Positions 12,376 through 40,329 of a stretch of DNA of 64,000 bases are shown in pieces. Under the pieces are notes generated by a model, which had not been told where the DNA came from, did not search any database, and saw nothing but the letters and a program-made list of their open reading frames with translations. The translations under genes and the position numbers were made by a program. Positions within the stretch are counted from its first letter, which is position 1. Each line of letters opens with the position of its first letter. The stretch is from an uncultured Poribacteria bacterium (GTDB lineage Bacteria; Poribacteria; WGA-4E; WGA-3G), in assembly GCA_951828385.1 (NCBI GenBank), contig OX639973.1:62001-126000 (forward strand), written 5' to 3'.

Positions 12376-14091
12376 ATGCTTGGTTTTCCGAAAATATTGC
12401 ACCAACTTCATCTCTTTGAAAAAGATGGTGTCCCTTATGCTGCGGATCTTGAGAAAGCGCGTGTTGTTGAACTTTCTGCTGTAATGGTGGATATCCTGAA
12501 ACTCGCCGAGACACAAACGGATGCTGCGATTGTCAATAAGCTGGAAGCCTCTTATGAAGCGGACGAGATCTCTGAGGCGTTTGAACGGTTCTCGGAACTT
12601 GAGAAAGAAGGATTGCTGTTCAACCGCGGTGAGGACTTAAAGCGGAGTCTCGCGACGGAGAGTAAGTGGCGAAAGCTGCTGGTTGTGATCCCCGGTATCA
12701 ATATGGATTCGTTTTTCGATATTGAGACGTTATCTGCCGGTACGAACATGGCACTCGCTTATATGATTCGGCATCTCACCGAATACACGGACCTCCACTT
12801 TGCGGGTTCTCGGAACAGAAAGATCACAGATGGGGTGTACGAAGTCGATATCGGTATTGATGATTTGGTACGTCTTCGGTCAAAGATCGCTGAGACGTAT
12901 TACGGGATCTTGGCTTTACATCAGGATCGTGAACGGTGGCTACTTCCGCTTTACCGATACCCAGAGTTCCCACCGATTCTGGTTCAGAATCATGCGCCGC
13001 GGGGACACGGTGGACAGGCGATTAATTCGATGCTGCGACATTATGCAGCGATGCGGGAGTGTGATGGGTTTACGGCACCGTCGGATTATGTCCGCGACTT
13101 TTATGCCCATTATATCTGGGATCCGAGTTTCTTCAATACATTGCCGAATGGTGTGGATTCAAAGTTGTTCCGTCCGATGGATAAGATGGCGGCGAAGCGA
13201 CAAATCGCTGAGGAAGTCGGAGATGATCGTATTCCAGTTGCGCCGACCGTCGGGTATCTCTCGCGAGTGCAGTCGGAAAAAGGGGCATCTGTCTACTTGA
13301 AGTTGGCGGCACTGAATCCACATCTGATTTTTATGATTGCGGGACCGGATATGGGAAGGTATGCGTCTCGGCAGCTGCCGGACAATCTTGTGTATGTGGG
13401 TTTCCATCCGCGTGAGAAGTTGCCGCTTGTCTATAATGCGTTTGATGTCTACTGTTTCCCATCGATGTCGGGCGAGGAGACATTCGGGCTAACGGTGTTG
13501 GAAGCGATGGCGTGTGGCGTGCCACCTGTCGTTCCGAATTTCGATGGTGTCCCAGCGGTTGTCGGCGATGCAGGACTGGTGGCGGATGCTGATAATTTTC
13601 AGCAAGATGTCGCAACGCTTGTGAGTTATCCGTGTCCGATGAGTTTTACAGAGAAGATCAATACACTGCTAAACAATACAGAAATGTGGCAAGCACTTTC
13701 TGAGAAGGCAAGACAACGGGCACTCTTGTTCACTTGGTATAAGACGGCACGCCGGATTGTGCAGTTATTTGAGATGCTGCATCAAAAGAAAAAGTTAATC
13801 AATCGAAACAGGCTTCTGAATGTGTTCGCACCGGCACAACCGATAGAAGGTGAAGAACCAGATGGACAGAACTGTAGGTCGGTTGTGCTGAGTATGAATA
13901 CCCATTACGAGCGGTGTCTGATTCGAGATGCAGTCTATCCGTTGCCTGTTGAGGATGGACTCGTCCTGAGCATTTTGAAAGAGCATACCGCGAGGGAAGC
14001 GGAGTCAATTCTTGCTGCATTGATTGCCGATGAGACACAGGCAAGGGCGATTCTTAAAAGGGTTCGCGGTTTAATCAATGCGACTGCCTAA
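12376..14091 (+). CDS. RRE-GT4: GT4-family glycosyltransferase with N-terminal PqqD-like domain (cassette A, first)
   Basis: 571 aa. Residues about 1-90 (FEKDGVPYAADLEKARVVEL, ILKLAETQTDAAIVNKLEASY, LEKEGLLF) have the pattern of a PqqD-like RiPP recognition element. Residues about 240-470 form a GT-B GT4 domain: LPNGVDSKLFRP, VGYLSRVQSEKG, LVYVGFHPREKLP and GEETFGLTVLEAMACG, with an intact E-x7-E. About 95 C-terminal residues form a small helical module seen in the sister enzymes. No signal peptide. It probably binds the leader of the precursor peptide and transfers a sugar to the core. The GT4 fold is firm; RRE function and substrate are inferred. Confidence 0.88.
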   Translation: MLGFPKILHQLHLFEKDGVPYAADLEKARVVELSAVMVDILKLAETQTDAAIVNKLEASYEADEISEAFERFSELEKEGLLFNRGEDLKRSLATESKWRKLLVVIPGINMDSFFDIETLSAGTNMALAYMIRHLTEYTDLHFAGSRNRKITDGVYEVDIGIDDLVRLRSKIAETYYGILALHQDRERWLLPLYRYPEFPPILVQNHAPRGHGGQAINSMLRHYAAMRECDGFTAPSDYVRDFYAHYIWDPSFFNTLPNGVDSKLFRPMDKMAAKRQIAEEVGDDRIPVAPTVGYLSRVQSEKGASVYLKLAALNPHLIFMIAGPDMGRYASRQLPDNLVYVGFHPREKLPLVYNAFDVYCFPSMSGEETFGLTVLEAMACGVPPVVPNFDGVPAVVGDAGLVADADNFQQDVATLVSYPCPMSFTEKINTLLNNTEMWQALSEKARQRALLFTWYKTARRIVQLFEMLHQKKKLINRNRLLNVFAPAQPIEGEEPDGQNCRSVVLSMNTHYERCLIRDAVYPLPVEDGLVLSILKEHTAREAESILAALIADETQARAILKRVRGLINATA

Positions 14092-14179
14092 TCAATCTTC
14101 TTAATGTTCTGGGCAGAAAGAAAGTTTTCAAGAACTTAGCAACTTTAGGCACTTCACAACTTTAAGTAGGAATAAAATT

Positions 14180-15832
14180 ATGGTATCTCGACGGCGTTAT
14201 CAATTAAAACGTCATCATAAATTTGAACAGGATGAGCGCAAATATGTGGCGGACCTTGAAACGGGGGCCCTTGTTCAGGTAAACGACGTGGAGTGGGAGA
14301 TTCTGGCGCGTTATGAATCTCAGACCCCATATCAGATCGTGAAGCGGTTGAAAAGCAAATACAAACTAACCGCTATCTTTGAAGGGATTGAACGTTTGGA
14401 ACGGCTTGGTGAGCAAGGTATCCTTTTAAGACCAGTCGCTAAACCCGCAGCACCGATGACTGCAAACCGGAATCAGACAGATCGGATGCCGAAGTTGTTG
14501 GTCCCGTTCCATTTTACGCAGGAGAAGTCGGCGTTGGGCTATCTCACAGGACTCAACCGCTACCAGTTTTTGCGGCACCTCTCGGAATTCGCCGAGTTGG
14601 AAACATTGGCTTTTTCTGAGATAGGTGGCGAAAAACAGGAGATACCAGATTTCGACGAGGTTCGGGTTCGGAAGATAGATGTCCCGAAAAGCAACGCTTT
14701 GGCAGCACCGTGGTATGCTCTGGATGGGTATGATGGTATCTTGCTCCTTTCGCAATTCTTGACGGACGATTTGTTATATTACCAGGTGCCTGATGTCCCG
14801 ATTGTTCACTGCATAGATGGCGCCCAGCAGCTGCGGCATATTTTATTAAAAACACTCTTGACGCTCAGTGCGTTCCAGCGTTCAAAAGATACGTTGGTTG
14901 TCAAGGCATCGTGGATGAAGGAGTGGCTCGCTGAGTTGGGGGCACCGGTGGAAAATGTGCACGTGATTCCCGATCGGATAGATGTTGTTGCACCGATCGG
15001 CGATAAGACGTTGGCGAAACAACACACTGCGGCTATCTTTGAGAAGCCGATGTTCACAAAACAACCGGTTGTCGGGTTGATTTCTGGATTTGAACCGAGG
15101 CGCGGCGCGAAGTGGATATCTGCGTTTGCGCGTGCCAATCGGCATCTCGCTATTTTTGTCTACGATGCGATGTTGGCGCAGCACTATCAGCATCCGCCGG
15201 AGAATGTGGTCGTTTTCAATGCGGATGATGAGGAGACTCGGTCGGTTTTATCAATATTTTTCCAAGCGTTAGATCTGGTGTGTTTCCCTGCGATGCCAGG
15301 GACACCGCTCTCAATCGTCTTGGAGGCGATGGCGTTTGGTGCGCCGTGTGTCGCGATGTCGAAGTATGGGATGCCGCCGGAAGTCGCAGGTGCAGGCGTT
15401 ACCATAGAGGCGGACTGGGATCACTTTGGCAACTTCCGTGTGCCGATGCCGGAGTTATCAAGAACAATACACAAATGGTTGCAGCCGTCTAAGGTGAGTG
15501 GATTGTGTGACAATTTTACGGAACGGATCGTTCAGCGACATACGCGAAAGGACGCTGCACAGACGATTGTCCAACTGTTCGCGGAAGGTCTTCAGCGGGA
15601 AACAGACGATTTTGAGGAAATCGAGCGAACGGTGTTCCCACCGATTTTCTGTCGTCGGTATGAACCGGAGACAGGCATGCTCAAATCGAGTGTATATCGG
15701 TTAGGAATCAATAGAAGCGATGATGATTTTGAGACGGCTTTGGCGGAGGTATTGGAAACCGAAGGGCATACGGCTGCTGAAGTGGCATCGGTTTTCAATC
15801 ATTTCCAGCAAGAGCGTTCTGTATGTATGTGA
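14180..15832 (+). CDS. RRE-GT4 with degenerate E-x7-E (cassette A, second)
   Basis: 550 aa. N-terminal PqqD-like domain (FEQDERKYVADLETGALVQV, IVKRLKSKYKL, LGEQGILLRP), then a GT-B domain (VVGLISGFEPRRGAKW, VLEAMAFGAPCVAMSKYGMPPEVAG). The first Glu of E-x7-E is Gly (PGTPLSIVLEAM). It may be inactive, alter donor use, or serve as a non-catalytic partner of the preceding enzyme. It ends 95 nt before the first precursor peptide gene, which suits a joint role. Confidence 0.85.
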   Translation: MVSRRRYQLKRHHKFEQDERKYVADLETGALVQVNDVEWEILARYESQTPYQIVKRLKSKYKLTAIFEGIERLERLGEQGILLRPVAKPAAPMTANRNQTDRMPKLLVPFHFTQEKSALGYLTGLNRYQFLRHLSEFAELETLAFSEIGGEKQEIPDFDEVRVRKIDVPKSNALAAPWYALDGYDGILLLSQFLTDDLLYYQVPDVPIVHCIDGAQQLRHILLKTLLTLSAFQRSKDTLVVKASWMKEWLAELGAPVENVHVIPDRIDVVAPIGDKTLAKQHTAAIFEKPMFTKQPVVGLISGFEPRRGAKWISAFARANRHLAIFVYDAMLAQHYQHPPENVVVFNADDEETRSVLSIFFQALDLVCFPAMPGTPLSIVLEAMAFGAPCVAMSKYGMPPEVAGAGVTIEADWDHFGNFRVPMPELSRTIHKWLQPSKVSGLCDNFTERIVQRHTRKDAAQTIVQLFAEGLQRETDDFEEIERTVFPPIFCRRYEPETGMLKSSVYRLGINRSDDDFETALAEVLETEGHTAAEVASVFNHFQQERSVCM

Positions 15833-15859
15833 GTGTGTCTCGCTGGCAACCAGAGGTTT

Positions 15860-15875
15860 CCCAACTACGGTTGGG
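15860..15875 (+). other. Hairpin with UACG loop in the leader of precursor 1
   Basis: CCCAAC and GTTGGG enclose TACG, a stable UNCG-type tetraloop, 52 nt before the precursor start and upstream of its strong GGGAGGAGG ribosome site. It could stabilise or terminate part of the polycistronic message and let the small gene be expressed at its own level. Confidence 0.5.
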
Positions 15876-15927
15876 AGGCGTATCCCGCCGGGGTGAGATG
15901 CCCGGTAAAAGGGAGGAGGTGAATTTG

Positions 15928-16188
15928 ATGAAAAAGAATCTCCGCGGTAAAATCCGCGAATATATCCAGTCTGAAGAGGGGAAGGTGGGCGTGAAATCGC
16001 CACTGACGCTCGGTGTAGCGGCAGGGGGGCTTCTGTTGGCACATGTGATTGGGACATCTGAAGCAGAACCGGGGTGGTGCTATACTGAGGGAGCTACATG
16101 CGGAGTCTATGGCTCTGCCACTTATATCTGCGGTGGTCCTTGGATTTCGATTGACGGTACCTGGACCGGGACATGTATACCGCAATAA
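15928..16188 (+). CDS. Cys-rich secreted precursor peptide 1 (4 Cys)
   Basis: 86 aa. ATG after GGGAGGAGGTGAATTTG, a very strong ribosome site. Layout: charged N-terminus (about 1-17), conserved SEEG-KVG-VKSPLTLG (15-30), hydrophobic stretch to about 42 (VAAGGLLLAHVI), SEA|E resembling a signal-peptidase site, then a core with four Cys plus Gly, Trp and aromatic residues. The same N-terminal pattern recurs in three other small genes of the island. The G-then-hydrophobic arrangement resembles Flp-type prepilin leaders, and a prepilin-type peptidase gene is close by. I read it as a RiPP-like precursor; the mature product is unknown. Confidence 0.8.
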   Translation: MKKNLRGKIREYIQSEEGKVGVKSPLTLGVAAGGLLLAHVIGTSEAEPGWCYTEGATCGVYGSATYICGGPWISIDGTWTGTCIPQ

Positions 16189-16459: not shown

Positions 16460-17356
16460 ATGTTATATGAAGATTTTGAGCAGGCGTTTGAAGCGCGTTT
16501 GCAGACACGCGCAGACGCGTATGTGAACGCCGTGGAATACCATCGCGTGCAGTTTGGACAGACGATTGAGTATCTGTTGCGATCTATCTTGGAACAGACG
16601 GATCATCTGATAAAACAGTCTGATGCGGGTTGGGCGCGCACCGAAGACGTTGTGACTGATATTCTCTATTGTGCGAATATGGATGTCGAGCAACTCTTGG
16701 CACTTAAAACTCCGAACGAACTGATGGCGGATAGGGATTTTGAAGCGGTCAAAACGAAACTCTACGAAACGAAGTGTTATCCTGTTAGTGAACATTTGAA
16801 CTATATCTCATTCCCGCCGGCTCTGGAGCGGAAGGCGTTTATTGGCAAGCATTTTGATTGTTTTAAAGCGGATTCATATTTCTGTGATCTGGGTTTCGGT
16901 CCTGGGGTGCTCACTGCGTTTATTTTGGAGCAAAAGGCTTCGTGGCGCGCTGCGGGTGTTGATATTAGCAAGGATTGCCTTCATCACGCGCAGCGACTTT
17001 TAGAGAAAAAAGAGGTTTTGGAAAGGAGCGAATTGTCGGTTGCGGATGTTCGTAGCCTCCCGTATCCTGATGACACTTTTGATGTGGTTGTCGCGGTTGA
17101 GGTGCTTGAGCATATCCCGGACCCCGAAGCGGGTTTAGCGGAAGCGATGCGAGTGCTGAAACCGGGCGGATACGCGATGACTGCACTCCCAGTGCGACTG
17201 CCGCTGTGGATGCATCTCTATGATTTTGATACGCCTGACGAAGTCTTAGCACTCTACGAAAAAGTTGGGCTTGAAGTGGTTGATTTTGAGAAGAAGGAAT
17301 TTCGACTTCAAGGGGGCTCCTTCGTGGATACGTTCGCCTTGAGCGTGAATCCTTAA
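16460..17356 (+). CDS. Class I SAM-dependent methyltransferase
   Basis: 298 aa. Rossmann methyltransferase domain from about 120: motif I FCDLGFGPGVLTAF, acidic AAGVDISKDC, LSVADVRSLPYPDDTFDVVV, EVLEHIPDPEAGLAEAMRVLKPGGYAM. The N-terminal 120 residues are helical and not recognised. It sits directly after precursor 1 and 23 nt before the A24 peptidase gene, so it may methylate the peptide or its sugar. A fragment of a second copy survives at 41886-42032 in the decayed cassette, which shows the gene belongs to the cassette type. Confidence 0.88.
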   Translation: MLYEDFEQAFEARLQTRADAYVNAVEYHRVQFGQTIEYLLRSILEQTDHLIKQSDAGWARTEDVVTDILYCANMDVEQLLALKTPNELMADRDFEAVKTKLYETKCYPVSEHLNYISFPPALERKAFIGKHFDCFKADSYFCDLGFGPGVLTAFILEQKASWRAAGVDISKDCLHHAQRLLEKKEVLERSELSVADVRSLPYPDDTFDVVVAVEVLEHIPDPEAGLAEAMRVLKPGGYAMTALPVRLPLWMHLYDFDTPDEVLALYEKVGLEVVDFEKKEFRLQGGSFVDTFALSVNP

Positions 17357-17379
17357 GAATGAAAGGTTTTTGTGATACG

Positions 17380-18516
17380 ATGTCGGTTTATGAATACTTT
17401 CTTGTATTTTTAGCACTTATTTTTTGCGGTTATGCAAGTTGGACGGACCTGAAGACGCAGAAGATCCGCAACATTTGTTCGCTCGGTCTTCTTTATGGCG
17501 GAACGTTGAGCCAATTGATGGCGTGGTATCTCGGTACAACAACGCCGCTGTATATCTTAGGGCTTTTCTTCGGGAGCGGTATGATTGCGTTTGGATTCTA
17601 TTGGTTCGGTATCTTCTCACCGGGGGATTCCAAACTCTTTTGGGGACTGTGTCTGATTTTCCCGCTATCGCTTTTTAGGAACTTGAGCGGCAGCCTGAGT
17701 TTCCCGCCGTTGATTCTCGCGCTGAATATCGTTATTCCGTATTCGATGGGGCTGTTGGGGTATCTACTTTACAAATTTGCGTTGATGCCGAACAAGTTGG
17801 TGCTGCTTCGCGGTTTCGTGATGTCAAATTTTCAGAAAACAGCACTCTTTGAAAAACTTTTCAATCTGCTTTTCTTCATCGGTATCGCGACCGCGCTGAC
17901 ATCCGCGTTGGAGCTGTTCGGATGGCAACCTGACCGATTTGTGAGTCTACTTTTGGTCTTGGCGGTGTTTGCTTTAGTGCAGAAGTTATTATCGCTTATT
18001 CCGAAAACGCCGGTGTATTATGCGATTGTCGGGTTCGCGTGTGTTTGGCTTTCGGTTCGGTCGGCACCATCTGTGCCGGTATTTCTTTCCGGTTTAGCGT
18101 TTTTCTTGGGGTTGTATCTTGTTGTTTTTGTTGTTGCTAAGCAGTTGGTCCTCGGTTTAGCGAGCATAGCATTAGATAATGCCGTTGATGTGGAGGGTCT
18201 GCAAGTCGGTATGATTCCAGCGGAGCAGATTCTTCGGATAGCGGAGACGGACGGGAGTGTCCGCTATGAGAAAAAACAGGTTGCGTTTTCAAGTGGTCAG
18301 GACGACAACGTCATCGTTTCACCGGATCCCGCGGGGCTTGATGCCGAGGAGATCGCGCACTTGCAAGACCTCGCGGCAACAGGTGCACTTGTGGAATTTG
18401 AGAATCAGATAAAGATTCAACCCTCTATTCGCTTCGCACCAGTGATTTCTATCGGCGCACTTCTCACGGTTCTCTGCCAAGGCCCCTTTTATCTGAAGCT
18501 GATGCAGCTATTTTAA
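17380..18516 (+). CDS. A24 prepilin-peptidase-like membrane aspartic protease with C-terminal extension (cassette A)
   Basis: 378 aa, multi-pass membrane protein. I chose the ATG at 17380 rather than 17359 because it gives the same N-terminal length as the sister at 34507. The two catalytic Asp are D23 in ASWTDLKTQKI and D83 in FSPGDSKLFWG, the A24 x-D and GD motifs. After more membrane segments comes a soluble module (GLQVGMIPAEQIL ... ALLTVLCQGPF), reminiscent of C-terminal domains in some archaeal A24 peptidases. No pilin or secretion-ATPase genes are near. Its likely substrates are the precursor peptides, whose leaders look prepilin-like. Confidence 0.85.
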   Translation: MSVYEYFLVFLALIFCGYASWTDLKTQKIRNICSLGLLYGGTLSQLMAWYLGTTTPLYILGLFFGSGMIAFGFYWFGIFSPGDSKLFWGLCLIFPLSLFRNLSGSLSFPPLILALNIVIPYSMGLLGYLLYKFALMPNKLVLLRGFVMSNFQKTALFEKLFNLLFFIGIATALTSALELFGWQPDRFVSLLLVLAVFALVQKLLSLIPKTPVYYAIVGFACVWLSVRSAPSVPVFLSGLAFFLGLYLVVFVVAKQLVLGLASIALDNAVDVEGLQVGMIPAEQILRIAETDGSVRYEKKQVAFSSGQDDNVIVSPDPAGLDAEEIAHLQDLAATGALVEFENQIKIQPSIRFAPVISIGALLTVLCQGPFYLKLMQLF

Positions 18517-18694: not shown

Positions 18695-20557
18695 ATGAAA
18701 CGTGCAATTTTAGTGCTAATAATTTTGACGCTGGGGGTGACATTACCACCACTTTATTCACAATAGGCAGAATCTCAAAGGCTCAAACAGATAGAAATAG
18801 TAAAACAACAGGCACGCCCGGTTTCCGGGGATCGGTTAGAAAAGGTGCTGTCAGCACTTGAAAGCGGTGCGCCACCTTCTGTGGTGGTCTTGTATACAGG
18901 TGGCACGAAAAGCCATCTGGAGCCGTGCGGGTGTTATCAGGAACAGTCGGGTGGATTGCCGAGACGTGCTTATGTTGTAGAGCAATTTCGGAAGCATGGA
19001 TTCCCGACGCTTTTAGTAGATGCTGGGAACATCTTTGATGGAAAAGAGGAAATTGATGCGAAGCGGTGTGAAGTTAACCTGAAGGCAATGTCCAAAATGA
19101 AATACGACGCGGTCGCACTCAGTGAATCCGATCTCACCTATGATGATGCCTATCTGCGTCGGCAGCATGCTGTTGTGACTTTTCCGTTCTTGGCACCACG
19201 CGCGGGGCACGCCGATTTCACGGAGCCGTTTGTCATTGAACAGGTGGGACAGCACACTGTCGCACTTGTTACGGGTAAAACATCCGAAGCAGTGGTATCA
19301 CAGACAGATGTTGTTGTAGTTTTAGGGGAACCTGAGGACCCTGAACATATTGATGGTGTCATCTGTCCAGACGATATTCAGACAACAGTGTCTGAAGACG
19401 GACCGCTTTATGTCGGTTGTCCACCTGAAGGCAAGACGTTGGGTGTGTTGGCATTTTGGGTGGATGCAAGCGGAAAACTCGCACGCCACTACACAGCGGA
19501 ATTGGCGTTGACTGGGGATGTCGGTGAGTCTGAACCGATCCGTCAACTCCTGACAGATTTCTATCAAAGTGTTGCTGCGGAGAACAGCACGCAAAGTGCT
19601 GCTCTTTTCACTGAACAACTGTTAGAGCAACAACAGGAAAACGGGTACGCCTCAGCGGCAGCATGCCAACAATGCCATGAGCAGGAATATCTCCAATGGT
19701 CAGCAACGCGCCACGCCTTCGCCTACCAAACACTCCTGAAAAAGGAGCGATACTTTGACACAGGGTGTGTCTCCTGCCATACCACCGGGTTTGGGTATCC
19801 CACAGGTTTCCAGATAGGAGACCAAAACGCAACGCTCGAAGGGGTGCAGTGTGAGACGTGCCACGGTCCCGGCAAGCAACACGTTGGCAACCCGAAAAAG
19901 AGTAATATTCGCAATGGTGCCGATACCTCGCTCTGTTTGCAATGCCACGATACAAAACATTCGCCAGGGTTTGCGGAGGTGGTGGCACTCCATAGCAAGG
20001 ATGTTGATCATAGTCGCCAGCCGCTGAACTTGGAGGAACTCTTAGCGTCGCGCATCGCACGGATGGGCAAGCCGACGCTGGAACTCTTTGTGATGAGTTA
20101 TTGCCCGTTCGGTGTTCAGGCGGAAGAAAATATTATTCCAATCGTGAAAAAGTTTGGCGATAAGATTGATTTCAAACTCCAGTTTATTGCAGAAGAGAAG
20201 GAAGAGTCTTCAACACAAAACATAACGCCGTTTACGAGTCTCCACGGCTACCCTGAAGTGGCAGAAAACATCCGGCAGTTGCTGGTCGCACAAGAATATC
20301 CGGATCGGTATCTTGATTATATTTTGTGCCGCGGTAAGAAACTGGATAAAAGTTGGGAGGATTGCGCGCAGAAACTCGGTATCGATGTGGCGAAGATTCA
20401 AGCGTTGTTTGACGCTCCGGAGGCAGCGCAGCGGTTCCGGGAAAATATTGCGCGTGCCGAGGCGTTGGGGATTAAGGCATCTCCGACGATTTTGGTGGAT
20501 AACCACAAATTTGGAGCGAATCAACTGCTACGGGCGAGTGGAACGCCCTGCCAATAG
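18695..20557 (+). pseudogene. Metallophosphoesterase-like/tetraheme cytochrome/thioredoxin fusion (cassette A) with in-frame TAG
   Basis: ATG 18695 opens a membrane anchor (MKRAILVLIILTLGVTLPPL) like that of the intact sister at 26690, but TAG at 18764 replaces the Trp of the sister's YQRWSEA. The rest is open to 20557 (GTG 18845 is the first start, 570 aa). Domains: UshA/SoxB-like (LYTGGTKSHLEPCGC, SGGLPRRA), four heme sites (CQQCH, CVSCH, CETCH, CLQCH), and a C-terminal thioredoxin-like domain (FVMSYCPFGVQAEENI ... SPTILVD). Without the anchor, export for heme attachment is unlikely, so it is either inactive or needs readthrough. All downstream motifs are intact, so the change looks recent. 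Confidence 0.75.
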
Positions 20558-20623
20558 AAAAGGTTTATGAACTTAAACGCAACTCTGTGAGTTGGGTCAG
20601 TTTTAAACATTTTCGGCGGGGCA

Positions 20624-20707
20624 GCTCTACTCCTACTTGCGAGGCAACTCGTGCTGGAAATGGGTTTCCTGACAGCGATGCGGAAACTAATCCCGCTGGA
20701 ATAGAGC
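20624..20707 (+). other. Structured 5' leader of precursor 2
   Basis: A closing stem GCTCTACTCC (20624-20633) pairs with GGAATAGAGC (20698-20707), 9 of 10 pairs. Inside are a CGAG-GCAA-CTCG hairpin with a GNRA loop (20640-20651) and a GTTTCC/GGAAAC stem (20664-20669, 20682-20687). The ribosome site AAAGGAG follows 7 nt later. The multi-branched fold looks like a cis-regulatory RNA; I cannot match it to a known riboswitch. Confidence 0.5.
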
Positions 20708-20732
20708 ACCAGCAGAAAGGAGAAACCCATAG

Positions 20733-21008
20733 ATGAAGCATAACGTCCGTAGTAAGATCAGTGACTTCCTCAAATCTGAGGAGGGACATGTTGGTGCTAA
20801 ATCACCGTTGGCATTGGGCGTGGCAAGTGCCAGCTTGTTGTTGACTCAGATGATGGTTACGCCATCCATGCAGGCAGATTTGGAGTGTTATCCTTTAGCG
20901 GGTGACTGTGCAGAAGATGAGTATTGCTATGCTTGGTGCGACGGTACATGGGATTTAGGGCGCTGTTCCGGTACAGCACACAGTTACTGCAGACCGCTTG
21001 ATTCTTGA
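20733..21008 (+). CDS. Cys-rich secreted precursor peptide 2 (6 Cys)
   Basis: 91 aa. Same plan as precursor 1: MKHNVRSKISDFLKSEEG, HVGAKSPLALG, a hydrophobic stretch (ASASLLLTQMMV), MQA|D as a possible signal-peptidase site, and a core of about 42 residues with six Cys, several acidic and aromatic residues. The leader is close to precursor 1 while the core is quite different. This is the mark of modular RiPP precursors: conserved leader, variable core. It lies between the redox fusion and the sugar-nucleotide genes. Confidence 0.8.
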   Translation: MKHNVRSKISDFLKSEEGHVGAKSPLALGVASASLLLTQMMVTPSMQADLECYPLAGDCAEDEYCYAWCDGTWDLGRCSGTAHSYCRPLDS

Positions 21009-23449: not shown

Positions 23450-23632
23450 AGGGAAACAATCAGATGATTTGAACTTTAAGGATTTTAGTTTGCTATTGTG
23501 TATGGTATACTCTTAACGAGATAACAAGCAAAGAAAAATCTGTTTTATACCGATACAGGGCAAGTTACTTCAAGGAATAGCATCTTATTTTAAATCATTT
23601 AGATCTGTTCGTTGATGATGGAGAATCTGATC

Positions 23633-26604: not shown

Positions 26605-26659
26605 TTTTCATTTTTTGTCATATTTTGCACGCAAACTACCCAAAAATTTGGTCTTTAAG
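26605..26659 (+). promoter_or_regulatory. Island promoter element C (TGCACG-N22-TTTAAG) before the redox fusion
   Basis: TTTTTTGTCATATTTTGCACG, with TGCACG at 26626-26631, 22 nt, GGTC directly before TTTAAG from 26654. The GTG start of the next gene is 36 nt downstream of TTTAA. Spacing is identical to elements A and B. Confidence 0.7.
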
Positions 26660-26689
26660 TGTTATACATTACAAAAGAAGGAGACTTGT

Positions 26690-33264: not shown

Positions 33265-33882
33265 TGGTTGGTAGAACGTGAATTTGTACTGCCGGCGGTT
33301 GTCGTGAACTTCAAAAAGGGAGGAGGTGATATTCATGCAAAGACACATTTCGCCGATTGCCAAACAACGCATCAGCGACTTCTTCACGCAAGAAGATGGC
33401 AATGTCGGGCGGAAAAATGCGCTGACGGCAGGCACCATTCTTAGCGGTGTGATGCTCGCTGCGACACTGTTCGGTCCAGAAACCGCCCACGCTGATAGAC
33501 AAGAGTGTGAAGAAGAATTGTGGGGGAGATGGTGCGGCAGTGAAGATGGCGCGTGCTGTAGTCTTGATCTGAGTCATCGCTGCTGCTCAAAGTGGGACAA
33601 CGTGGACATGGAATGGGACTATTTCTGCACTTATGGCGACTGTAAATGATAGAGGATTCTACCATGTTTTCAAACGCGACTCAACTTTTATCTTCGACGC
33701 TGCATTAGGGAGGAGAGCGTTTCTTTTTCTTTCCTAATGGAAGAAACCGGGTAAAGGTATAAAGCGATGTATTTGCATTTATTAGATTGCTTGAGTCTAT
33801 AGGGTTTACGCAAAACGCCCTATATTTCTTAATTGGGTTGCGAAAAACCGGGTGCAAGGTTGTATCGTTCGCGTCTCTGCTC
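33206..33882. repeat. Inverted repeat (19/20) bracketing precursor 3
   Basis: GAGCAGAGACGCGAGCGATA at 33206-33225 matches the complement of 33863-33882 with one mismatch. The arms lie in the leaders of precursors 3 and 4 and enclose the complete precursor 3 gene. Confidence 0.6.
33335..33649 (+). CDS. Cys-rich secreted precursor peptide 3 (8 Cys)
   Basis: 104 aa. ATG after GGGAGGAGGTGATATTC. Leader MQRHISPIAKQRISDFFTQE then DGNVGRKNALTAG, hydrophobic ILSGVMLAATLF, ETAHA|D as a signal-peptidase-like site. The core has eight Cys including two CC pairs, acidic and Trp-rich. The leader is nearly identical to precursor 4 in DNA and protein, but the cores differ, so the pair arose by tandem duplication with fast core divergence. 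Confidence 0.8.
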   Translation: MQRHISPIAKQRISDFFTQEDGNVGRKNALTAGTILSGVMLAATLFGPETAHADRQECEEELWGRWCGSEDGACCSLDLSHRCCSKWDNVDMEWDYFCTYGDCK

Positions 33883-33937: not shown

Positions 33938-34225
33938 ATGCAAAGACACATTTCGCCGATTGCCAAGCAACGCATCAGCGGCTTTTTCACGCAAAAAGAT
34001 GGCAACGTCGGGCGGAAAAACGCTCTGACAGCAGGCACCATTCTCAGTGGTATGATGCTCGCTGCTGTGCTGTTCACTCCAGAGACTGCTAACGCTGGTC
34101 CTGGTGACTGTGGTCATAGTTACTTCTGGTGTCGTGATCAATGGAGCGGGCAATGTTGTACGGAGGGGTGGAATTGCTGCTCAGATGGTCATGGCAATTA
34201 TGACTGTGTTCCGGGAGCTTGCTGA
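33938..34225 (+). CDS. Cys-rich secreted precursor peptide 4 (8 Cys)
   Basis: 95 aa. ATG after GAAGGAGGTGATATTC, the same ribosome site as precursor 3. Leader QRHISPIAKQRISGFFTQKD, GNVGRKNALTAG, hydrophobic ILSGMMLAAVLF, ETANA|G. The core has eight Cys (two CC pairs again) with Gly, Trp and polar residues. Cys spacing differs from precursor 3 outside the CC pairs. The gap 33650-33937 contains hairpins (CATTAGG/CCTAATG; TATAGGG/CCCTATA followed by TTTCTT) that may limit read-through. Confidence 0.8.
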   Translation: MQRHISPIAKQRISGFFTQKDGNVGRKNALTAGTILSGMMLAAVLFTPETANAGPGDCGHSYFWCRDQWSGQCCTEGWNCCSDGHGNYDCVPGAC

Positions 34226-34460: not shown

Positions 34461-34506
34461 TTCAAGCAACTTGTTAGACGATTGTACAATCATTACGGAA
34501 GGGAAG

Positions 34507-35640
34507 ATGTTAAATTATCAAAACTTACTACTTGGTACTTTGGGGATTTTCTGTCTCTACGCTACATATACAGATATTCGGGAAAGAAAAATAACCAACC
34601 TCTGTGCGTATGGACTGATCTACGCGGGTATCCTGAGCCAGATTATATTTATCCTCTCAGGTAACACAACAGTGTTGAAAAGCCTGATAACGGTGACCGG
34701 TGGTTTCGGGATTGTTTTTGCCCTCTACTGGTTCGGGATATTCGCTGCTGGGGACGCAAAACTATTTTGGGGGATATGTCTTCTCGTTCCGCCGGATCTA
34801 TTTTCTCAAGGGAATGCCTTGGCTCAGTTTGTGCCAGCGTCTCTGGCGATAAACACCTTTGTTCCATATTTTTTGATTTTTACAATTTATCTGCTTACGA
34901 CTTCAACAGGCGGTCAGAAGTTAAGAGCGTTGACACAGATCTATCAGATGGACGATTTCTTTAAAAAAGTTCTGGATATGCTTTTCCGTCTCATTTTACT
35001 CTTAGGTTTGGGACAAGTTGTTAATATTTTATTTAATTGGCAAGAGATCCGAGTTGATTCGTTGTATTTTTCGATACTCGTTTTATCTCTTTTCTTCGCG
35101 ATTAATTATCTTGTGAACAAGTTTAGCTTGGAAAAATGGCGGAATTATATAATCTGCCCAGTGCTATTTGAAATTATGATCTTGAGTACACCTTTTACCT
35201 TGAGAGCGTGGTCTCAGACATATCTAATGTTTTTGAAACTGTATCTTATCTACATCGCGGTTTTCCTTTTTTTAAGGCTCTATATTGATAATCTGGATAG
35301 TATGGTCCTGGATAAAGAGATAGATATCGCGGACTTAGAGGAGGGTATGGTTTCCGCAGAACAGATTGTTAAGGAAGACAGAGATGGCGAAGTTGCTTAT
35401 CAGAAGACGGGATTTTCTCTACCGAATGTCCTGAACGAAAATGTAGTCCTGACCACCCTCTCTCATGCGCTATCGAAAGAGAAGATCGCTGAACTAAAGC
35501 AGTTCGCACAAGATGGATGCTTTCAGGAATTTGAAAACAAGATTAAGATTCAGCAATCGCTCTGTTTTGCACCGATTATCTTGCTGGGTGTTGTTTTAAC
35601 GGTTTTGTGTCAGGGACCCTTTTTTCTGGTGTTTCAGTAA
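34507..35640 (+). CDS. A24 prepilin-peptidase-like membrane aspartic protease with C-terminal extension (cassette B)
   Basis: 377 aa from the ATG at 34507 (MLNYQNLLLGTLGIFCLYATYTD). Catalytic Asp at D23 (ATYTDIRERKITN) and D83 (FAAGDAKLFWG), the same positions as in the cassette A sister. C-terminal module IADLEEGMVSAEQIV ... VVLTVLCQGPFF matches the sister's. No pilus assembly genes are near; it follows precursors 3 and 4 directly. It probably cleaves their leaders at the inner membrane. Confidence 0.85.
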   Translation: MLNYQNLLLGTLGIFCLYATYTDIRERKITNLCAYGLIYAGILSQIIFILSGNTTVLKSLITVTGGFGIVFALYWFGIFAAGDAKLFWGICLLVPPDLFSQGNALAQFVPASLAINTFVPYFLIFTIYLLTTSTGGQKLRALTQIYQMDDFFKKVLDMLFRLILLLGLGQVVNILFNWQEIRVDSLYFSILVLSLFFAINYLVNKFSLEKWRNYIICPVLFEIMILSTPFTLRAWSQTYLMFLKLYLIYIAVFLFLRLYIDNLDSMVLDKEIDIADLEEGMVSAEQIVKEDRDGEVAYQKTGFSLPNVLNENVVLTTLSHALSKEKIAELKQFAQDGCFQEFENKIKIQQSLCFAPIILLGVVLTVLCQGPFFLVFQ

Positions 35641-35683: not shown

Positions 35684-35992
35684 ATGGCAAAGTCAAGAAT
35701 ATTTTATGTGGTTACACTGAGGTCAAATGTAAAAAAGAAAGATGTGAAGAAATTTATGGAAAGAGAGTGGCTACCCAAAATACGGGGTGTTCCAGGCTGT
35801 TTAGCGGTTGAACTGTTGGAGACTTACCAAGATCGAGCCGGCTATTGTGTTTCAGAACTCTGGGAAAGTCAGGAGATTCACCTAAAAAGGACGGATGAAT
35901 TTTGGGGTGGGGCAGGCGAAGCACTTATGAAAAAGATGTTAAATTATGCCGTCCTTGAAACTATATGGAATTGCACTGTTTTAGATGTTTAG
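35684..35992 (+). CDS. Small dimeric alpha/beta-barrel (ABM-like) protein
   Basis: 102 aa; ATG after TAAGGAGTTGCA. SRIFYVVTLRSNVKKKDVKKFMEREW, PGCLAVELLETYQDRAGYCVSELWESQEIHLKR resembles the antibiotic-biosynthesis-monooxygenase/NIPSNAP-type fold of one strand-helix-strand unit. It has no cofactor site that I can point to. It lies between peptidase and kinase genes in the cassette. Could be an oxygenase or a structural/regulatory protein. Confidence 0.65.
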   Translation: MAKSRIFYVVTLRSNVKKKDVKKFMEREWLPKIRGVPGCLAVELLETYQDRAGYCVSELWESQEIHLKRTDEFWGGAGEALMKKMLNYAVLETIWNCTVLDV

Positions 35993-36027
35993 TTGATACA
36001 ACTTCGAGTATTGAGGGGTGAATCTCT

Positions 36028-37119
36028 GTGGCTGATGAACTCAATCAATCTGGTAGTCTGATTCAAGGTGGATTTGCAAGTGGAACAGTTGATATGAATA
36101 CGCGGTTCTATGCTCAGGCTCCGACACGCATTGATCTTGCAGGCGGCTGGACGGATCTGATCCCTTTCACGATGGAAACGGACGGATTTGTGCTAAACGC
36201 GGCGATTGATCTCTATGCGTCAGCGACACTAACACCTCAAGCCGGAAAGGTTGTTACCCTCCAGAGTGCTCATGCTCAGCAGCGGTTTTGTTTGCAGTCG
36301 GTTCTGTCGGAAACCATAAACGGACTCAGTTTACCGGAAGCGATCATCTTAAGGGTGCGTCCCGGAAGTGGATATCGACTTGCTCTTGAGAGTCAGGCTC
36401 CAAAGGGCGGCGGCTTGGGTGGTTCGGGTGCGATAGGTGTTGTCTTAGTGGGTCTACTGCATACCTTCGCGGGTAAGCATTTAAAATCGTACCAAATCGT
36501 TGACATCGCGAATCAGATTGAGCGAGAGACTGGAATCCCCTGTGGAAAGCAAGACCATTATGCGAGCGTCTTGGGTGGATTTAATTTTTTGCGATGTCAC
36601 GGGGAGTCGGTTGTGGTCACACAGCTGAATCTGAGCAACGAGGTAGTGCAGCGGTTGCAGCAGTCGTTGCTTTTGGTCTACACCGGCGATTCCCATTTTT
36701 CAGGGGAGATTCTGCAGAATGTGGTTGATGCCTACAGATCTCGGAATCGGCAAACCCGCGAGGCACTCTCTGCTCTGCGTCGAATTGCGCAAGAGATGAA
36801 AGTGGTTCTATGTCAAGGCGACCTGTCCAGCATTGGATATCTGCTGGCTGAAAATTGGCGTTATCAGAAACATCTGCATCCATCAGTGACATCTAATCGG
36901 GTTGAACATCTCTTTGAGATCGCTGAACGAAATGGCAGTATCGGCGGGAAAGCGTGTGGTGCAGGCGGTGGTGGGTGTTTGGTATTCTATTGTCCTCAAG
37001 AGAAAAAGAAGACTGTTGCAGAAGCACTTATGGCGGTTGGGGCACCTTCCATCCGTTTTAGTTTCGACTTTAAGGGACTTTTGATTCGATCTTATGATAG
37101 GGGTGCGCCATCCTTTTAG
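36028..37119 (+). CDS. hddA: GHMP-family sugar kinase, HddA-like (heptose-7-phosphate kinase)
   Basis: 363 aa, GTG start after GAGGGGTGAATCTCT. Motif 1 APTRIDLAGGWTDLIPF, ATP loop PKGGGLGGSGAIGVVLVG, motif 3 GGKACGAGGGGCLVFYCP. The T-R-I-D-L-A-G-G-W-T-D signature is typical of D-glycero-D-manno-heptose-7-phosphate 1-kinases and related fucokinase-like enzymes. With the HddC-like gene at 21.1 kb it gives two of the four GDP-D-glycero-alpha-D-manno-heptose steps; GmhA and GmhB are not in the window. L-fucose kinase-type activity is an alternative. Confidence 0.82.
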   Translation: MADELNQSGSLIQGGFASGTVDMNTRFYAQAPTRIDLAGGWTDLIPFTMETDGFVLNAAIDLYASATLTPQAGKVVTLQSAHAQQRFCLQSVLSETINGLSLPEAIILRVRPGSGYRLALESQAPKGGGLGGSGAIGVVLVGLLHTFAGKHLKSYQIVDIANQIERETGIPCGKQDHYASVLGGFNFLRCHGESVVVTQLNLSNEVVQRLQQSLLLVYTGDSHFSGEILQNVVDAYRSRNRQTREALSALRRIAQEMKVVLCQGDLSSIGYLLAENWRYQKHLHPSVTSNRVEHLFEIAERNGSIGGKACGAGGGGCLVFYCPQEKKKTVAEALMAVGAPSIRFSFDFKGLLIRSYDRGAPSF

Positions 37120-37141
37120 ACGCTGTATTGCGACCAAGTGA

Positions 37142-37192: not shown

Positions 37193-37213
37193 GTTTGAAA
37201 ATAGGAGAACCCC

Positions 37214-38038
37214 ATAGACCTAACTATTGTAGCACTTTATACGATTTCTGACGATCTTTTAATCTCAATTGGGCATCAAGAACACCCACAAGCAAAGATG
37301 TCGGATGCTGAAGTCATGACCGCTGCCCTTGTCACTGTGAGATATTTCGGAGGCAATCAATAGGCTGCATGCGCTGTCTTGAAGACGCTCGGATATATCC
37401 CGAATATGTTCGGACACTCGCGTTTCAATCGTCAGCTGCATCGGATGCCTCAACTTTTTGAAGTGCTTTTTGAATACCTCACAGAAGGTGCTAAACCCAA
37501 GAACCCTAATGGCATCTATATCATTGATGCCTTTCCAATACCTGTCTGCGACAATATTCAGATTTCACGTTCACGCCTGTATCAAGGCGGAGTGTGGCGT
37601 GGGAAAACCGCCAGCAAGCATCGCTATTTTTAGGGGCTCAAGGCATATCTGATGATTACCGAAACCGGAGAAATCGTTGAAGTTTTCTTCACGCCGAGCA
37701 GGTTTAGCGATATGCGCGGATTGCGTTGTTATCGTTTCGATCTGCCTGAAGGTTCAACAATCTATGCCGATAAGGTTTCCTATTGCGATTATGGTGTTGA
37801 AGATGCCTTACAGGCAGCAGGGATCACCTTAAAACCTGTGCGGAAAAAGAACTCTAGGTGTCAATATCCACCTTGGGAAGTTTATCTTCAACAGGCAACT
37901 CGCAAACGAGTTGAGGTGTCAATCAGTCTTATTGAACAACTTCTACCGAAGTCGATTCATGCCCTGTCAGCACGGGATTTTGAGTTAAAAGTACTTTTGT
38001 TTGTCATCGCAACAAGCATTAAACAACTCTTTGAATAA
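37214..38038 (+). pseudogene. IS982-family transposase, inactivated by two TAG codons
   Basis: A continuous frame of about 274 codons reads ISDDLL, KMSDAEVMTAALVTVRYFGGN, IPNMFGHSRFNRQLHRM, IIDAFPIPVCDNI, SKHRYF, TPSRFSDMRGL, LPEGSTIYADKV, SIEQLLPKSIHAL-like blocks typical of IS982. TAG at 37361 (after GGNQ) and at 37631 (after HRYF) break it, and the start appears as ATA at 37214. Terminal repeats were not identified. Its insertion may have triggered the loss of the third cassette's left part. Confidence 0.8.
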
Positions 38039-38080
38039 AAGTAGCAACTTGGGTTATATTAGGAAGGAGAATGACCAAAA

Positions 38081-39508
38081 ATGGTGCACCGATATAAACG
38101 TATAGAATTTCAAGAAAAATCTTATTTAGCAGATTTAGATTACCATCGGCTTTTACCTGTTGATGGATTGGTTCAGGATGTATTTGAGCGAATTGAATCG
38201 GGTGTTGAGGAGATAGTTACTGATTTAGCAGACAAGTACACCGAATCTGAGATCCGCAATTGTCTCAATTACCTTCATTGGCCCCAGGTACAAAGTTTCT
38301 CAAGAACTTTGGAGGTGCCTCCCTTAAAAATCCTCGCGCCCAGAATGCATTCAACGCATGGACAATTGAGATGGAACACCTTGGGTGCCTCTGTCGCTCA
38401 CACTGAATTGCTAAAAGCATTGTCCAAGTATGCCACAATCCATGTAACTCAGGAATTTGAGGAGATGGATAATATGGTTCTGACACCTTTCAATATTCGT
38501 GAGAAATCGTCTGTTTCAAGGATTATCAAGGAGAATTATGATGGTGTTTTGTTGTGGTATGTTGATGAATATGAGATGATGTCCTTGTTAAATTATCTAC
38601 ACGTTCCAGTTGTATTACCTATTTACACGGCGCGAGGTGCGAATGGACGAATCGCCAATGGCATGATGCGCTGGTATGCGTCAATGCGAAATTTCGATGG
38701 CTTCATGACGCTTAGCCAGCCTACCATTGATTTGTATTCGACATTCATTCATGAAACCTCATTGTTTCATATTGTTCCTTGTGGTGTGGACACCGATTTT
38801 TTCCAACCCGAAGATAAGGGACAAGCAAAACAGAAGGTCGCGAAATTATTGGATAAACCTGAAATTACCGAGAAGCCGCTTGTTGGATATATATCAAGGT
38901 TTCAGGTTGAAAAGGGCGCGGGGGTTTTTGTGGATGCTGCTCGATTGATGCCGAAGGTTCTTTTTTTGGCAGCGGGTTCGATAGAAGAGAGCTATCGCTA
39001 CGATTTTCCAGAGAATTTCCTTCACATTGGGAGACGGCCGCGAGAAGAATTACCTGTTTTATATAACGCCTTTGACGTGTTCTGTTTCCGGAGTATTGCT
39101 TGTTCTGAGGAGTTTGGATTGGTAGCTCTTGAGGCCATGGCGTGTGGGACTGTGCCTGTTGTATCAAGTTATGATGGACCGAAATATGTCGTCAAAGACG
39201 CGGGGGTTGTTGTGCCTGCAATGCTTTATGATCGTGATATGACGAGTATCGGTGGCGGAATTTTGGCTGAGGATTTTGCCGAAGCGATTGCGGACCTATT
39301 GCAGGACGATGTCAATAGACACAAACTTGCCGAGAAAGCGAGACAGCGGGCACTTGAACTCACATGGGATAATAGTGCCAAATGTCTCCTACAGGTTTTT
39401 CAAAATCTTAATGTGAAAAAGCGTCTCGTTGGGCAGCAGGTTCACATGCCGATAGGTTTCGGCCTCAACGAAAATATACATGATATTACCATCCTCTGTT
39501 TGGGGTAG
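38081..39508 (+). CDS. RRE-GT4 glycosyltransferase, C-terminally shortened (cassette C)
   Basis: 475 aa; ATG after AGGAAGGAGAATGACCAAAA. PqqD-like N-terminus (FQEKSYLADLDYHRLLPVDG, IVTDLADKYTESEI). GT-B domain: VPCGVDTDFFQPEDKG, VGYISRFQVEKGAG, FLHIGRRPREELPVLYNAFDVFCF and intact E-x7-E (SEEFGLVALEAMACG). It lacks the C-terminal 80-100 residue module of the other four and ends shortly after LVGQQVHMP, next to a peptidase remnant. A deletion probably fused the two. The catalytic part is complete, so activity is possible. Confidence 0.85.
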   Translation: MVHRYKRIEFQEKSYLADLDYHRLLPVDGLVQDVFERIESGVEEIVTDLADKYTESEIRNCLNYLHWPQVQSFSRTLEVPPLKILAPRMHSTHGQLRWNTLGASVAHTELLKALSKYATIHVTQEFEEMDNMVLTPFNIREKSSVSRIIKENYDGVLLWYVDEYEMMSLLNYLHVPVVLPIYTARGANGRIANGMMRWYASMRNFDGFMTLSQPTIDLYSTFIHETSLFHIVPCGVDTDFFQPEDKGQAKQKVAKLLDKPEITEKPLVGYISRFQVEKGAGVFVDAARLMPKVLFLAAGSIEESYRYDFPENFLHIGRRPREELPVLYNAFDVFCFRSIACSEEFGLVALEAMACGTVPVVSSYDGPKYVVKDAGVVVPAMLYDRDMTSIGGGILAEDFAEAIADLLQDDVNRHKLAEKARQRALELTWDNSAKCLLQVFQNLNVKKRLVGQQVHMPIGFGLNENIHDITILCLG

Positions 39509-39512
39509 AAAT

Positions 39513-40329
39513 TTTTCCGTTATTCCGAACCCTGCCTTGATTATCTTAGTGAATATGTTCATTGTCTATTTGGTTTATAGTATCATCCATACAGCGGTTA
39601 GGTATTTCATGTTACATAAGACGTTCGCACTTCCCCAGGGCGTTTCCTGTTAAAGAATTCGTCCAACAACTTCCGGGAAATTTATTGTCCTTACTCCGTT
39701 TTTTGGCGATCTTACTCTGTGTTGAGTTCTTCGCGTATCAATCGCAAAGTCGATTCACCTTTTTTCATTTGGTGCTGGCAGTTATTTTATCTTATACCCT
39801 TGACCGGATCACGAAGAAATTCGAGATCAAAGCTTATATTACCTATCCGGTATATTTCATTCCTGTCGCTGCCATTTTAATATTTAATCCAATCCTCCTA
39901 TTAGCGTATTGGAAAAAGTTTCTGTTTTTTGCAGTGGTCTATCGTTTGATTTTACCCATCATCAGCACCTACATGCTTAATTTGGACATGTCGTGCCTCA
40001 GCACGCTGGTGCCGATTGCGCAGCTCCAACCGGGTATGATTCCGGCAGAGAAAATCATAGGCACTCAGACAGATGAAGGGGTTTCCTATAGGAAAGAGTC
40101 TGCGGTTGTTTCAGATTCTTTTGATAAAAATGTGCTTGTTTCACCTGTCCCGGAAGGGTTGTCTGATGAAAACGTTCAAGAACTCAAAGAATTAGCGAAG
40201 TCAGGGAGTTTTGAAGCATTCGGGGGCACCTTGGCGATTCAACATTCTGTACATTTCGCACCGATAATTCTAACGGGGACACTTGTGACAATTCTGTGTG
40301 GCGGTATATTTTATGCCCCGATAATTTAA
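39513..40329 (+). pseudogene. Truncated, frameshifted A24 peptidase (cassette C)
   Basis: Frame 1 from 39513 (SVIPNPALIILVNMFIVYLV) matches the mid-membrane region of the sisters. It ends at a TAA near 39648, and the next frame continues FPVKEFVQQLPGNLLSLLRFL through the C-terminal module (LQPGMIPAEKII ... LVTILCGGIFYAP). The N-terminal third with both catalytic Asp is absent. The separate 255-codon frame from 39562 is therefore not a functional protease, though its C-terminal domain is well preserved. Confidence 0.75.

Follow-up and report, generated by a model that had tools for sequence, protein, structure and literature searches.

The window analysed here, 64,000 nucleotides long, covers bases 62001–126000 of the single contig (OX639973.1, assembly GCA_951828385.1) that makes up the 6.66 Mb genome of an uncultured Poribacteria bacterium. 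Five open reading frames (ORFs) for enzymes of glycosyltransferase family 4 (GT4), recognized by Pfam glycosyltransferase models, form two complete cassettes and one decayed cassette within it, together with genes for small Cys-rich peptides, a methyltransferase, A24 (prepilin-type) peptidases, redox fusion proteins, and sugar-nucleotide enzymes (Table 1; genes are named by their start positions). A preliminary description of this DNA had listed the accessory genes, which Pfam and NCBIfam scans located as claimed, and had read the whole as a glycopeptide system akin to ribosomally synthesized and post-translationally modified peptides (RiPPs). According to our analysis, the locus probably encodes a RiPP-like system in which a catalytic and a pseudoenzyme GT4 protein, each carrying an N-terminal RiPP recognition element (RRE), would glycosylate the Cys-rich peptides before export, and in which an A24 peptidase would remove the cytosolic leader. 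This view draws on the RRE fold computed for one enzyme, the split of the enzymes into types A and B, the leader/core pattern of the precursors, genetic linkage, and a structured RNA upstream of some precursor genes. The RRE, the precursors, and the linkage of the earlier reading are well supported; the attachment of a sugar is putative.

The four small genes, starting at 15928, 20733, 33335, and 33938, are preceded by AGGAG-type ribosome sites and encode peptides with a common leader and variable Cys-rich cores, just as had been described. With a profile built from these four sequences, the leader was also detected in ORFs belonging to other cassettes. In total, 115 precursor ORFs (111 distinct) were collected, 104 of them with a mapped Met start; the other 11 were excluded from comparisons of the 5′ untranslated region (5′ UTR) and flanks. 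One precursor list comprises 61 distinct sequences, 16 having been left out for want of the motif or of a Met. The commonest leader approximates [KR]..F..SEEGxVGxK and is followed by a hydrophobic stretch and an AXA-like motif, which precedes the core in 109/111 precursors under a loose pattern. By eye, the leader resembles what we take to be the prepilin pattern and so matches the A24 peptidases, a feature that the preliminary description had not noticed. Cysteine occurs in 103/111 cores, and its number is even in 88 of these 103. A ribosomal precursor, a conserved leader with a variable core, and an adjoining modifying enzyme, as expected of a RiPP, are all present.

For pairs of precursors within a locus (45 of 80 pairs, selected for a leader identity of at least 0.70 and a core identity below 0.97), the mean DNA identity is 0.73 in the 5′ UTR, 0.79 in the leader, and 0.61 in the core (0.53 for shuffled cores). 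No general conservation was seen in the 3′ flanks of paralogous precursors (0.55 versus 0.48 shuffled), so that cassette swapping at both ends is not supported. As the leader and the 5′ RNA are conserved and the core is hypervariable, one enzyme set could serve many peptides; up to 21 leader matches were counted per genome. The HxsA3 model is matched at E ≤ 0.1 by 14 of 27 precursors scanned (best E 2.1e-5). No full-length HxsA3 match above the NCBIfam cutoff was obtained for the three window precursors that hit the model, which align over the leader part only (best 24.2 bits versus 65). EB, WAP, and further disulfide-rich modules were weakly matched by single cores; we take this to reflect a similar cysteine arrangement and no kinship. 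At L061, L062, L063, L073, and L075, peptides with leader type 3 have few or no cysteines and short cores ending in -AI or -AT, and lie beside a third clade of GT pairs.

A PqqD/RRE N-terminus had been proposed for all five GT4 enzymes. The five enzymes exist, and profiles support the assignment in four of them: the N-terminal part of the NCBIfam model not_ScfB matches 28743 (E 3.1e-8), 30456 (E 2.2e-6), 14180 (E 7.7e-5), and 12376 (E 2.7e-3). Pfam PqqD matches three, all below the Pfam cutoff (28743, E 5.5e-4; 30456, E 2.9e-3; 12376, E 0.046), and gives no match for 14180 or 38081. The N-terminus of 38081, matched by neither model, was assigned by alignment alone. The fold was predicted for one N-terminus of the five, namely residues 1–95 of 28743, with six aligned sequences as input. 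The resulting model has a predicted local distance difference test score (pLDDT) of 78.8, with strands at residues 11–16, 19–24, and 29–33 and helices at 35–43, 49–56, and 62–77, which is the order demanded by the 2025 RRE paper (PMC12710340). The top nine Protein Data Bank matches retrieved by Foldseek are all RRE-bearing chains, with 5why/5wgg as the best (E 2.7e-5, 39% identity), followed by TbiB1 with its leader and a lasso B1 protein with its leader. A second structural comparison gave Z scores of 12.4 for 5wgg, 11.9 for 5why, 8.5–9.2 for lasso B1 proteins, and 8.1 for PqqD, and phmmer matched 5wgg from the 28743 sequence alone (E 2.6e-8, residues 9–84). The N-terminus of 28743–30437 is thus predicted to fold as an RRE nearest to 5wgg, which we take to be CteB. 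An N-terminus without the RRE fold, which had been named as a finding that would overturn the proposal, was not seen in this sole domain modelled. A duplicated RRE in the C-terminal ~95 residues of the glycosyltransferases, where two strands and three helices are predicted, found no support (hhalign against the N-terminal RRE, probability 3%).

In each complete cassette, the enzymes come as a tandem pair of a catalytic protein and an apparent pseudoenzyme (14180 and 30456 have lost catalytic residues), which had likewise escaped notice. ORFs of at least 500 amino acids from the fetched stretches were aligned (91, reduced to 87 by removal of duplicates, with the truncated 38081 excluded) and labelled type A or B by their best phmmer match to the window proteins. 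Arg292, Lys297, Glu363, and Glu371 (28743 numbering), whose equivalents have recognized roles in GT4 enzymes, are kept in 45/45 type-A sequences. Among the 42 type-B sequences, Arg292 and Glu363 are each kept in 0/42 and Glu371 in 40/42, and the two residues right after the lost Glu are deleted in 42/42. Type A therefore has the EX7E motif and the donor-site Arg/Lys of GT4 enzymes, whereas type B lacks the first Glu and the Arg. In a tree obtained with a quick method, without an outgroup and with long branches flagged, A and B form the two sides of one branch (Shimodaira–Hasegawa-like approximate likelihood ratio test, 100); in this same unrooted tree, to which no clade test was applied, the sub-clades of A have rough counterparts among those of B. 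B lies directly downstream of A in 46/54 type-A genes (ORFs of at least 400 amino acids). The most parsimonious history is a single ancient duplication, after which B would have lost catalysis and been retained as a partner. The full-length AlphaFold2 model of 28743 (pLDDT 68.5) comprises the RRE, the glycosyltransferase part, and a C-terminal domain, and its best Foldseek match is MshA (E 2.9e-18). The five best matches to the GT in the window's own genome are all inside the window, and the four others cover the glycosyltransferase part only.

Linkage was assessed in 84 Poribacteria genomes (RRE-GT at E ≤ 1e-20, leader at E ≤ 0.01), with every matching genome counted and the individual matches listed in part; loci were chosen for holding a GT, a leader without a GT, or further matches. 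RRE-GTs were found in 33/84 genomes and the leader in 40/84. All 33 RRE-GT genomes carry the leader versus 7/51 others (Fisher p 8e-17, which overstates the association because the genomes are related and not independent), so that homologues consistently lacking precursor genes, the other outcome said to refute the proposal, were not seen. Of the 54 type-A genes, 49 have a same-strand precursor no more than 6.1 kb away (45 within 5 kb, four at 5.2–6.0 kb). The five exceptions (L050, with its nearest precursor at 14.7 kb; L054, L056, and L079 twice, with none in the stretch) are all at or within ~2 kb of a stretch end. An A24 peptidase is present within 8 kb of 43/54. For 47 GT/leader pairs (type-A ORFs of at least 480 amino acids), clade and leader type agree, with GT-A1 and leader 1 in 22/22 and GT-A2 and leader 2 in 12/12; 13/47 pairs fall outside both clades, and the regular expressions for leader types were written after the sequences were seen. 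Full-length A24 homologues carry GD.K[LFV] in 47/47; the first-Asp pattern fits 41/47, and the other six carry TD[LM]R..K[IV]KN or TDLKEKKIKN. Both catalytic Asp sites (the TD..K.N region and GD.K) are found in 17359 and 34471. The three matches to the cluster's A24 model in genome G000 are all inside the cluster.

A relative of 28743 with 85% identity was the sole match in a contig scan with this one protein as query, which reaches close relatives only; it belongs to a Candidatus Poribacteria metagenome-assembled genome, and on this ground the window and the set of 84 genomes around it were assigned to that phylum. Outside the phylum, neither the leader (E ≤ 1e-8) nor the GT (E ≤ 1e-50, with the three best candidates per genome scored) was found; the sample of 386 genomes, 302 of them beyond the 84 as judged by their handles, is small and does not show confinement to Poribacteria. 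No GT match was obtained in 43 genomes of another phylum. No plasmid match covers 80% of the GT, and among the best 10 of 36 plasmid records the matches fall in the glycosyltransferase part. At L115 (G082:C1:2400000-2419999), three precursor genes with two leader types stand as orphans in a single-contig genome; the stretch contains a partial methyltransferase match, and neither GT nor A24 was detected there. In G081, the cassette genes occur twice in contig C2 (4964–20231 and 240312–258577) with identical scores for GT, precursors, and 5′ RNA, which may be due to either a recent duplication or an assembly effect.

Type-1 precursor genes, as was also not noted previously, share ~90 bases before the start. 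Across 43 aligned sites, these form two hairpins with standard pairs in 98.1% of cells. Covariation is 0.322 versus 0.186 in shuffles (0/500 as high) and at most 0.118 with the partners slid. The RNA model returned 58 sites, i.e. at most 57 distinct places as one lies in two overlapping stretches, from 61 sources searched; 43 of them are recovered by construction because they built the model. The site ends exactly at a mapped precursor start codon in 51/58. Among the other seven, four rows, which correspond to three places, reach the GTG of precursors that have the leader VKKETRD and that the start-finder had left unmapped. A fifth ends at the ATG of another precursor, for which a start 33 bases farther upstream had been mapped, a sixth precedes a damaged precursor (L057), and the last is without a precursor (L064). 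In the phylum set, an RNA site at E ≤ 0.001 is present in 29/84 genomes, 28 of which bear the leader; the exception is G071 (E 2e-4). A known riboswitch was rejected, since the window has no Rfam match at the gathering threshold and 20600–20760 gave chance-level matches only. As judged from sequence, this element is likely a regulatory RNA, and the two-hairpin 5′ UTR is a candidate for a new cis-regulatory RNA.

The remaining genes of the locus are included in Table 1, for which 20 cluster proteins were scanned with Pfam. The preliminary description had treated 38081–39508 as an ordinary fifth enzyme; it proved to be truncated and, like the A24 fragment at 39562, to be part of a third, decayed cassette that had been overlooked. 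Just 5′ of this cassette (37379–38038), small ORFs resemble pieces of a broken transposase by eye. The product of 35684–35992 presumably resembles an ABM-type domain. Between the two complete cassettes, 23612–26563, which the preliminary description had not named, encodes an extracytoplasmic function (ECF) sigma factor joined to a beta-propeller-like part, with what by eye is a likely membrane stretch between them. This ECF sigma-propeller family has 111 full-length or partial matches in the window's genome, a striking expansion for a single genome; 23612–26563 is therefore not cassette-specific, and its role as a dedicated regulator was rejected.

Table 1. Features of the RRE-GT4 cassettes, with positions counted from the first base of the window
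Feature	Position	Strand	Evidence
RRE-GT4 type A (catalytic), cassette 1	12376–14091	+	Glycosyltransferase Pfam models; EX7E conserved, as are the counterparts of Arg292 and Lys297
RRE-GT4 type B (putative pseudoenzyme partner), cassette 1	14180–15832	+	First EX7E Glu and Arg292 equivalent lost; 2-residue deletion; not_ScfB N-terminal match, E 7.7e-5
Structured 5′ UTR RNA (model R1) of precursor 1	15830–15930	+	52.5 bits, E 5.8e-8; among the 43 founder sites of the model
Precursor peptide 1, leader type 1, Cys-rich core	15928–16188	+	Leader model
S-adenosylmethionine (SAM) methyltransferase	16460–17356	+	Methyltransf_11, E 3.2e-22
A24 (prepilin-type) peptidase with Arc_PepC C-terminal domain, cassette 1	17359–18516	+	Pfam A24 and Arc_PepC weak, both below cutoff; TD..K.N-type and GDSKL motifs
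UshA-like/cytochrome c554/DsbA-like fusion, cassette 1	18845–20557	+	Pfam C554 and DSBA; NF041198, E 4.2e-61, below its cutoff
Structured 5′ UTR RNA (model R1) of precursor 2	20641–20735	+	90.8 bits; founder site; covariation across the 43 aligned sites
Precursor peptide 2, leader type 1, Cys-rich core	20733–21008	+	Leader model
Sugar-1-phosphate nucleotidyltransferase (mannose-1-P guanylyltransferase/HddC-like)	21112–21795	+	E 4.1e-40 and 2.6e-36, below model cutoffs
Phosphomannomutase/phosphoglucomutase	21792–23234	+	Pfam and NCBIfam scans
UshA-like/cytochrome c554/DsbA-like fusion, cassette 2	26615–28699	+	Pfam and NCBIfam scans
RRE-GT4 type A (catalytic), cassette 2	28743–30437	+	Predicted RRE fold, 5wgg match; GT fold nearest MshA
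RRE-GT4 type B (putative pseudoenzyme partner), cassette 2	30456–32108	+	Catalytic-residue alignment; not_ScfB match
Precursor peptide 3, leader type 2, Cys-rich core	33335–33649	+	Leader model
Precursor peptide 4, leader type 2, Cys-rich core	33938–34225	+	Leader model
A24 (prepilin-type) peptidase with Arc_PepC domain, cassette 2	34471–35640	+	A24, E 1e-7; Arc_PepC, E 7.5e-7; both above cutoff
Small conserved cassette-2 protein	35684–35992	+	Recurs in type-2 cassettes; no NCBIfam match at E ≤ 0.001
GHMP sugar kinase, HddA-like	36028–37119	+	NF049969 match under cutoff (E 2.6e-45)
RRE-GT4 type A, truncated, decayed cassette 3	38081–39508	+	Alignment; no B partner downstream
A24 peptidase remnant without catalytic half, decayed cassette 3	39562–40329	+	Arc_PepC sole Pfam match; alignment

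Taken together, these parts suggest the following course of events. In the cytosol, the RREs of the paired A and B enzyme would bind the N-terminal leader segment (F..SEEG). The A subunit, retaining by family, would then glycosylate the core, most likely on Ser/Thr, with a nucleotide sugar as donor, and the B subunit, having lost catalytic residues, may act as an adaptor or activator; by likeness to Gtf1-Gtf2, we infer that the two form a complex. The donor is probably GDP-mannose in type-1 cassettes, where a phosphomannomutase and a homologue of mannose-1-P/heptose-1-P guanylyltransferases are neighbours, and probably a GDP-heptose-like sugar in type-2 cassettes, which have an HddA-like kinase nearby; both assignments are tentative because the NCBIfam matches lie under curated cutoffs. 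Subsequently, the membrane A24 peptidase would cut the prepilin-like leader after SEEG at the cytosolic face, and the modified peptide would thereby come off the enzyme. The hydrophobic stretch left behind, with its AXA motif, would lead to Sec export and signal-peptidase cleavage, and the UshA-like/cytochrome c554/DsbA-like fusion, presumably periplasmic, may form or check the disulfides.

Several observations weigh against this scheme. Glycosylation, cleavage, the sugar, binding, complex formation, and bioactivity are all deduced from genes and sequences, and the full-length model of 28743 is of moderate confidence. G[ST]C, which occurs in 39/111 cores, is only a lead as an acceptor motif, and 8/111 cores have no Cys. 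If cleavage after SEEG is assumed, position +5 is Lys in 78, Arg in 15, Gln in eight, Ser in three, and Ala and Gly in one each of the 111 precursors (motif not found in five). It is thus Lys/Arg in 93/111 and never the Glu that pilins have at +5 of the mature chain, so that prepilin-type cleavage is uncertain. A24 as such also occurs outside the cluster: in G000, an ordinary A24 gene at another place gives a stronger Pfam match. Within 8 kb, and with many contigs being short, the UshA-like fusion accompanies 30/54 type-A genes, sugar-nucleotide genes 26/54, and a methyltransferase 17/54. The RRE and the leader covary (Mantel r 0.80), but the partial r is 0.09 given the rest of the enzyme, whereas the catalytic domain and the leader keep 0.43 given the RRE; specific RRE–leader coevolution is therefore not supported. 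Furthermore, seven of the 40 leader-bearing genomes (G033, G038, G042, G044, G045, G050, and G059) have no RRE-GT at E ≤ 1e-20. In G033, G042, G044, and G045, the precursor adjoins an A24 peptidase and the UshA-like fusion, and the 14–20 kb retrieved contain no GT; in G038, G050, and G059, precursors stand without GT or A24 in stretches of 6–15 kb. Glycosylation may thus be optional, or the leader may serve A24 and not the RRE, and the link of the leader to A24 and the redox fusion may be as close as its link to the GT. The loci of the former four genomes (L108–L111) are perhaps a GT-free form; in L109, a protein that looks TolB-like by eye lies between precursor and A24.

Could the peptides instead be degenerate pilins of the Flp type, processed by A24 and built into a glycosylated surface filament, with the RRE-GTs as pilin glycosyltransferases? 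The prepilin-like look of the leader and the A24 genes near most type-A genes speak for such a filament. We nevertheless regard it as unlikely, since Flp is absent among the 16 Pfam families listed for the 27 precursors scanned (E ≤ 1, with filters that lose most matches above 0.1), the residue at +5 is not that of pilins, no assembly ATPase or platform protein is present among the 20 window proteins scanned, and the AXA-like motif favours release. In addition, we know of no RRE in pilin glycosylation.

Slightly less probable again is that no peptide is glycosylated at all and that the GT4 fold was recruited for another step or transfers a sugar to a co-substrate, with the RRE merely tethering the complex. 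The acceptor cannot be told from fold and motifs, and the Foldseek matches include MshA, BshA, and LmbT, which use small-molecule acceptors; against this count the four catalytic residues kept throughout type A and the sugar-nucleotide enzymes in the neighbourhood. That the peptide is matured into a redox cofactor or electron carrier used by the c554/DsbA-like fusion, and is not a secreted product, seems improbable to us. Such a role would suit the recurrence of redox fusions in the cassettes and the Cys-rich cores, and a RiPP cofactor that is glycosylated has a precedent in mycofactocin. Hypervariable cores and many paralogues per genome are unlike a cofactor, however, and no radical SAM enzyme was found among the 20 proteins.

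Leader-guided peptide glycosylation by RRE-GT4 pairs is hence the reading that we prefer. In its widest form, it would describe a new RiPP-like class of glycopeptide, in which obligate pairs of a catalytic RRE-GT4 and a pseudoenzyme act on venom-like hypervariable Cys-rich peptides, with leader removal by A24 and control of precursor expression by a new structured 5′ RNA, and in which up to ~20 peptides per genome serve Poribacteria as a combinatorial arsenal; for this we see about even chances. If true, a leader-guided GT4 with a dead partner would be a new logic of RiPP glycosylation, and prepilin-type peptidases would be linked to peptide natural products. More than 100 natural precursors with one leader would then offer a test bed for leader-guided peptide glycosylation. 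It would also bear on the unexplained chemistry of uncultured Poribacteria, which are often associated with sponges.

RRE-glycosyltransferase fusions as such are already known, as they were mentioned by RRE-Finder in 2020 (PMC7470986) and in the 2025 update, which names PF00535 (PMC12710340). The preliminary description knew of no described family with its combination of features, and RRE-GT4 pairs, prepilin-like leaders, and A24 as one system were not found in the open-access literature searched, and neither was a tie of A24 to RiPP pathways. The terms "prepilin", "A24", "aspartic", "aspartyl", and "signal peptidase" are absent from the main text of a review on RiPP leader proteases (PMC10885120). 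The fusions reported with RRE-Finder likewise join an RRE to a glycosyltransferase; the main-text passages describe no precursor family, pair, or peptidase, and a listed example could be a relative (PMC7470986; PMC12710340). There is a fair chance that the present system is a new RiPP class.

The nearest likeness for the N-terminus is with RRE-fused maturases of the CteB/ScfB type, in which an N-terminal RRE (5wgg, not_ScfB) also forms one chain with the enzyme that does the modifying; the catalytic domain is of the radical SAM type there and of the GT4 type here. PF00535, in turn, is presumably a GT2 family. The paired enzymes and the exported substrate recall Gtf1-Gtf2 (GtfA-GtfB), a two-protein complex that starts the O-glycosylation of a streptococcal serine-rich repeat adhesin (PMC5207161); that system serves large repeat substrates and the Gram-positive accessory Sec. 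Flp/prepilin and HxsA3 leaders share the SEEG-type leader, with A24 in the case of Flp and the precursor matches in that of HxsA3, and differ from the present peptides, which have Lys/Arg at +5, a hypervariable Cys-rich core, and no accompanying radical SAM enzyme among the proteins scanned. To our knowledge, Gtf1-Gtf2 has no RRE. Glycocins (sublancin, glycocin F, thermoglycocin) are likewise small Cys-rich peptides with disulfides and a cluster-encoded glycosyltransferase. SunS is a GT2 enzyme, and the enzymes here match GT group 1/4 Pfam models and MshA-like folds; no C39 peptidase-ABC transporter was found among the 20 cluster proteins scanned with Pfam, the rest of the genome not having been searched for one. 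What sets the present system apart from the glycocins is a GT4 enzyme with an RRE and a pseudoenzyme partner, combined with a prepilin-like leader, A24, and an AXA motif.

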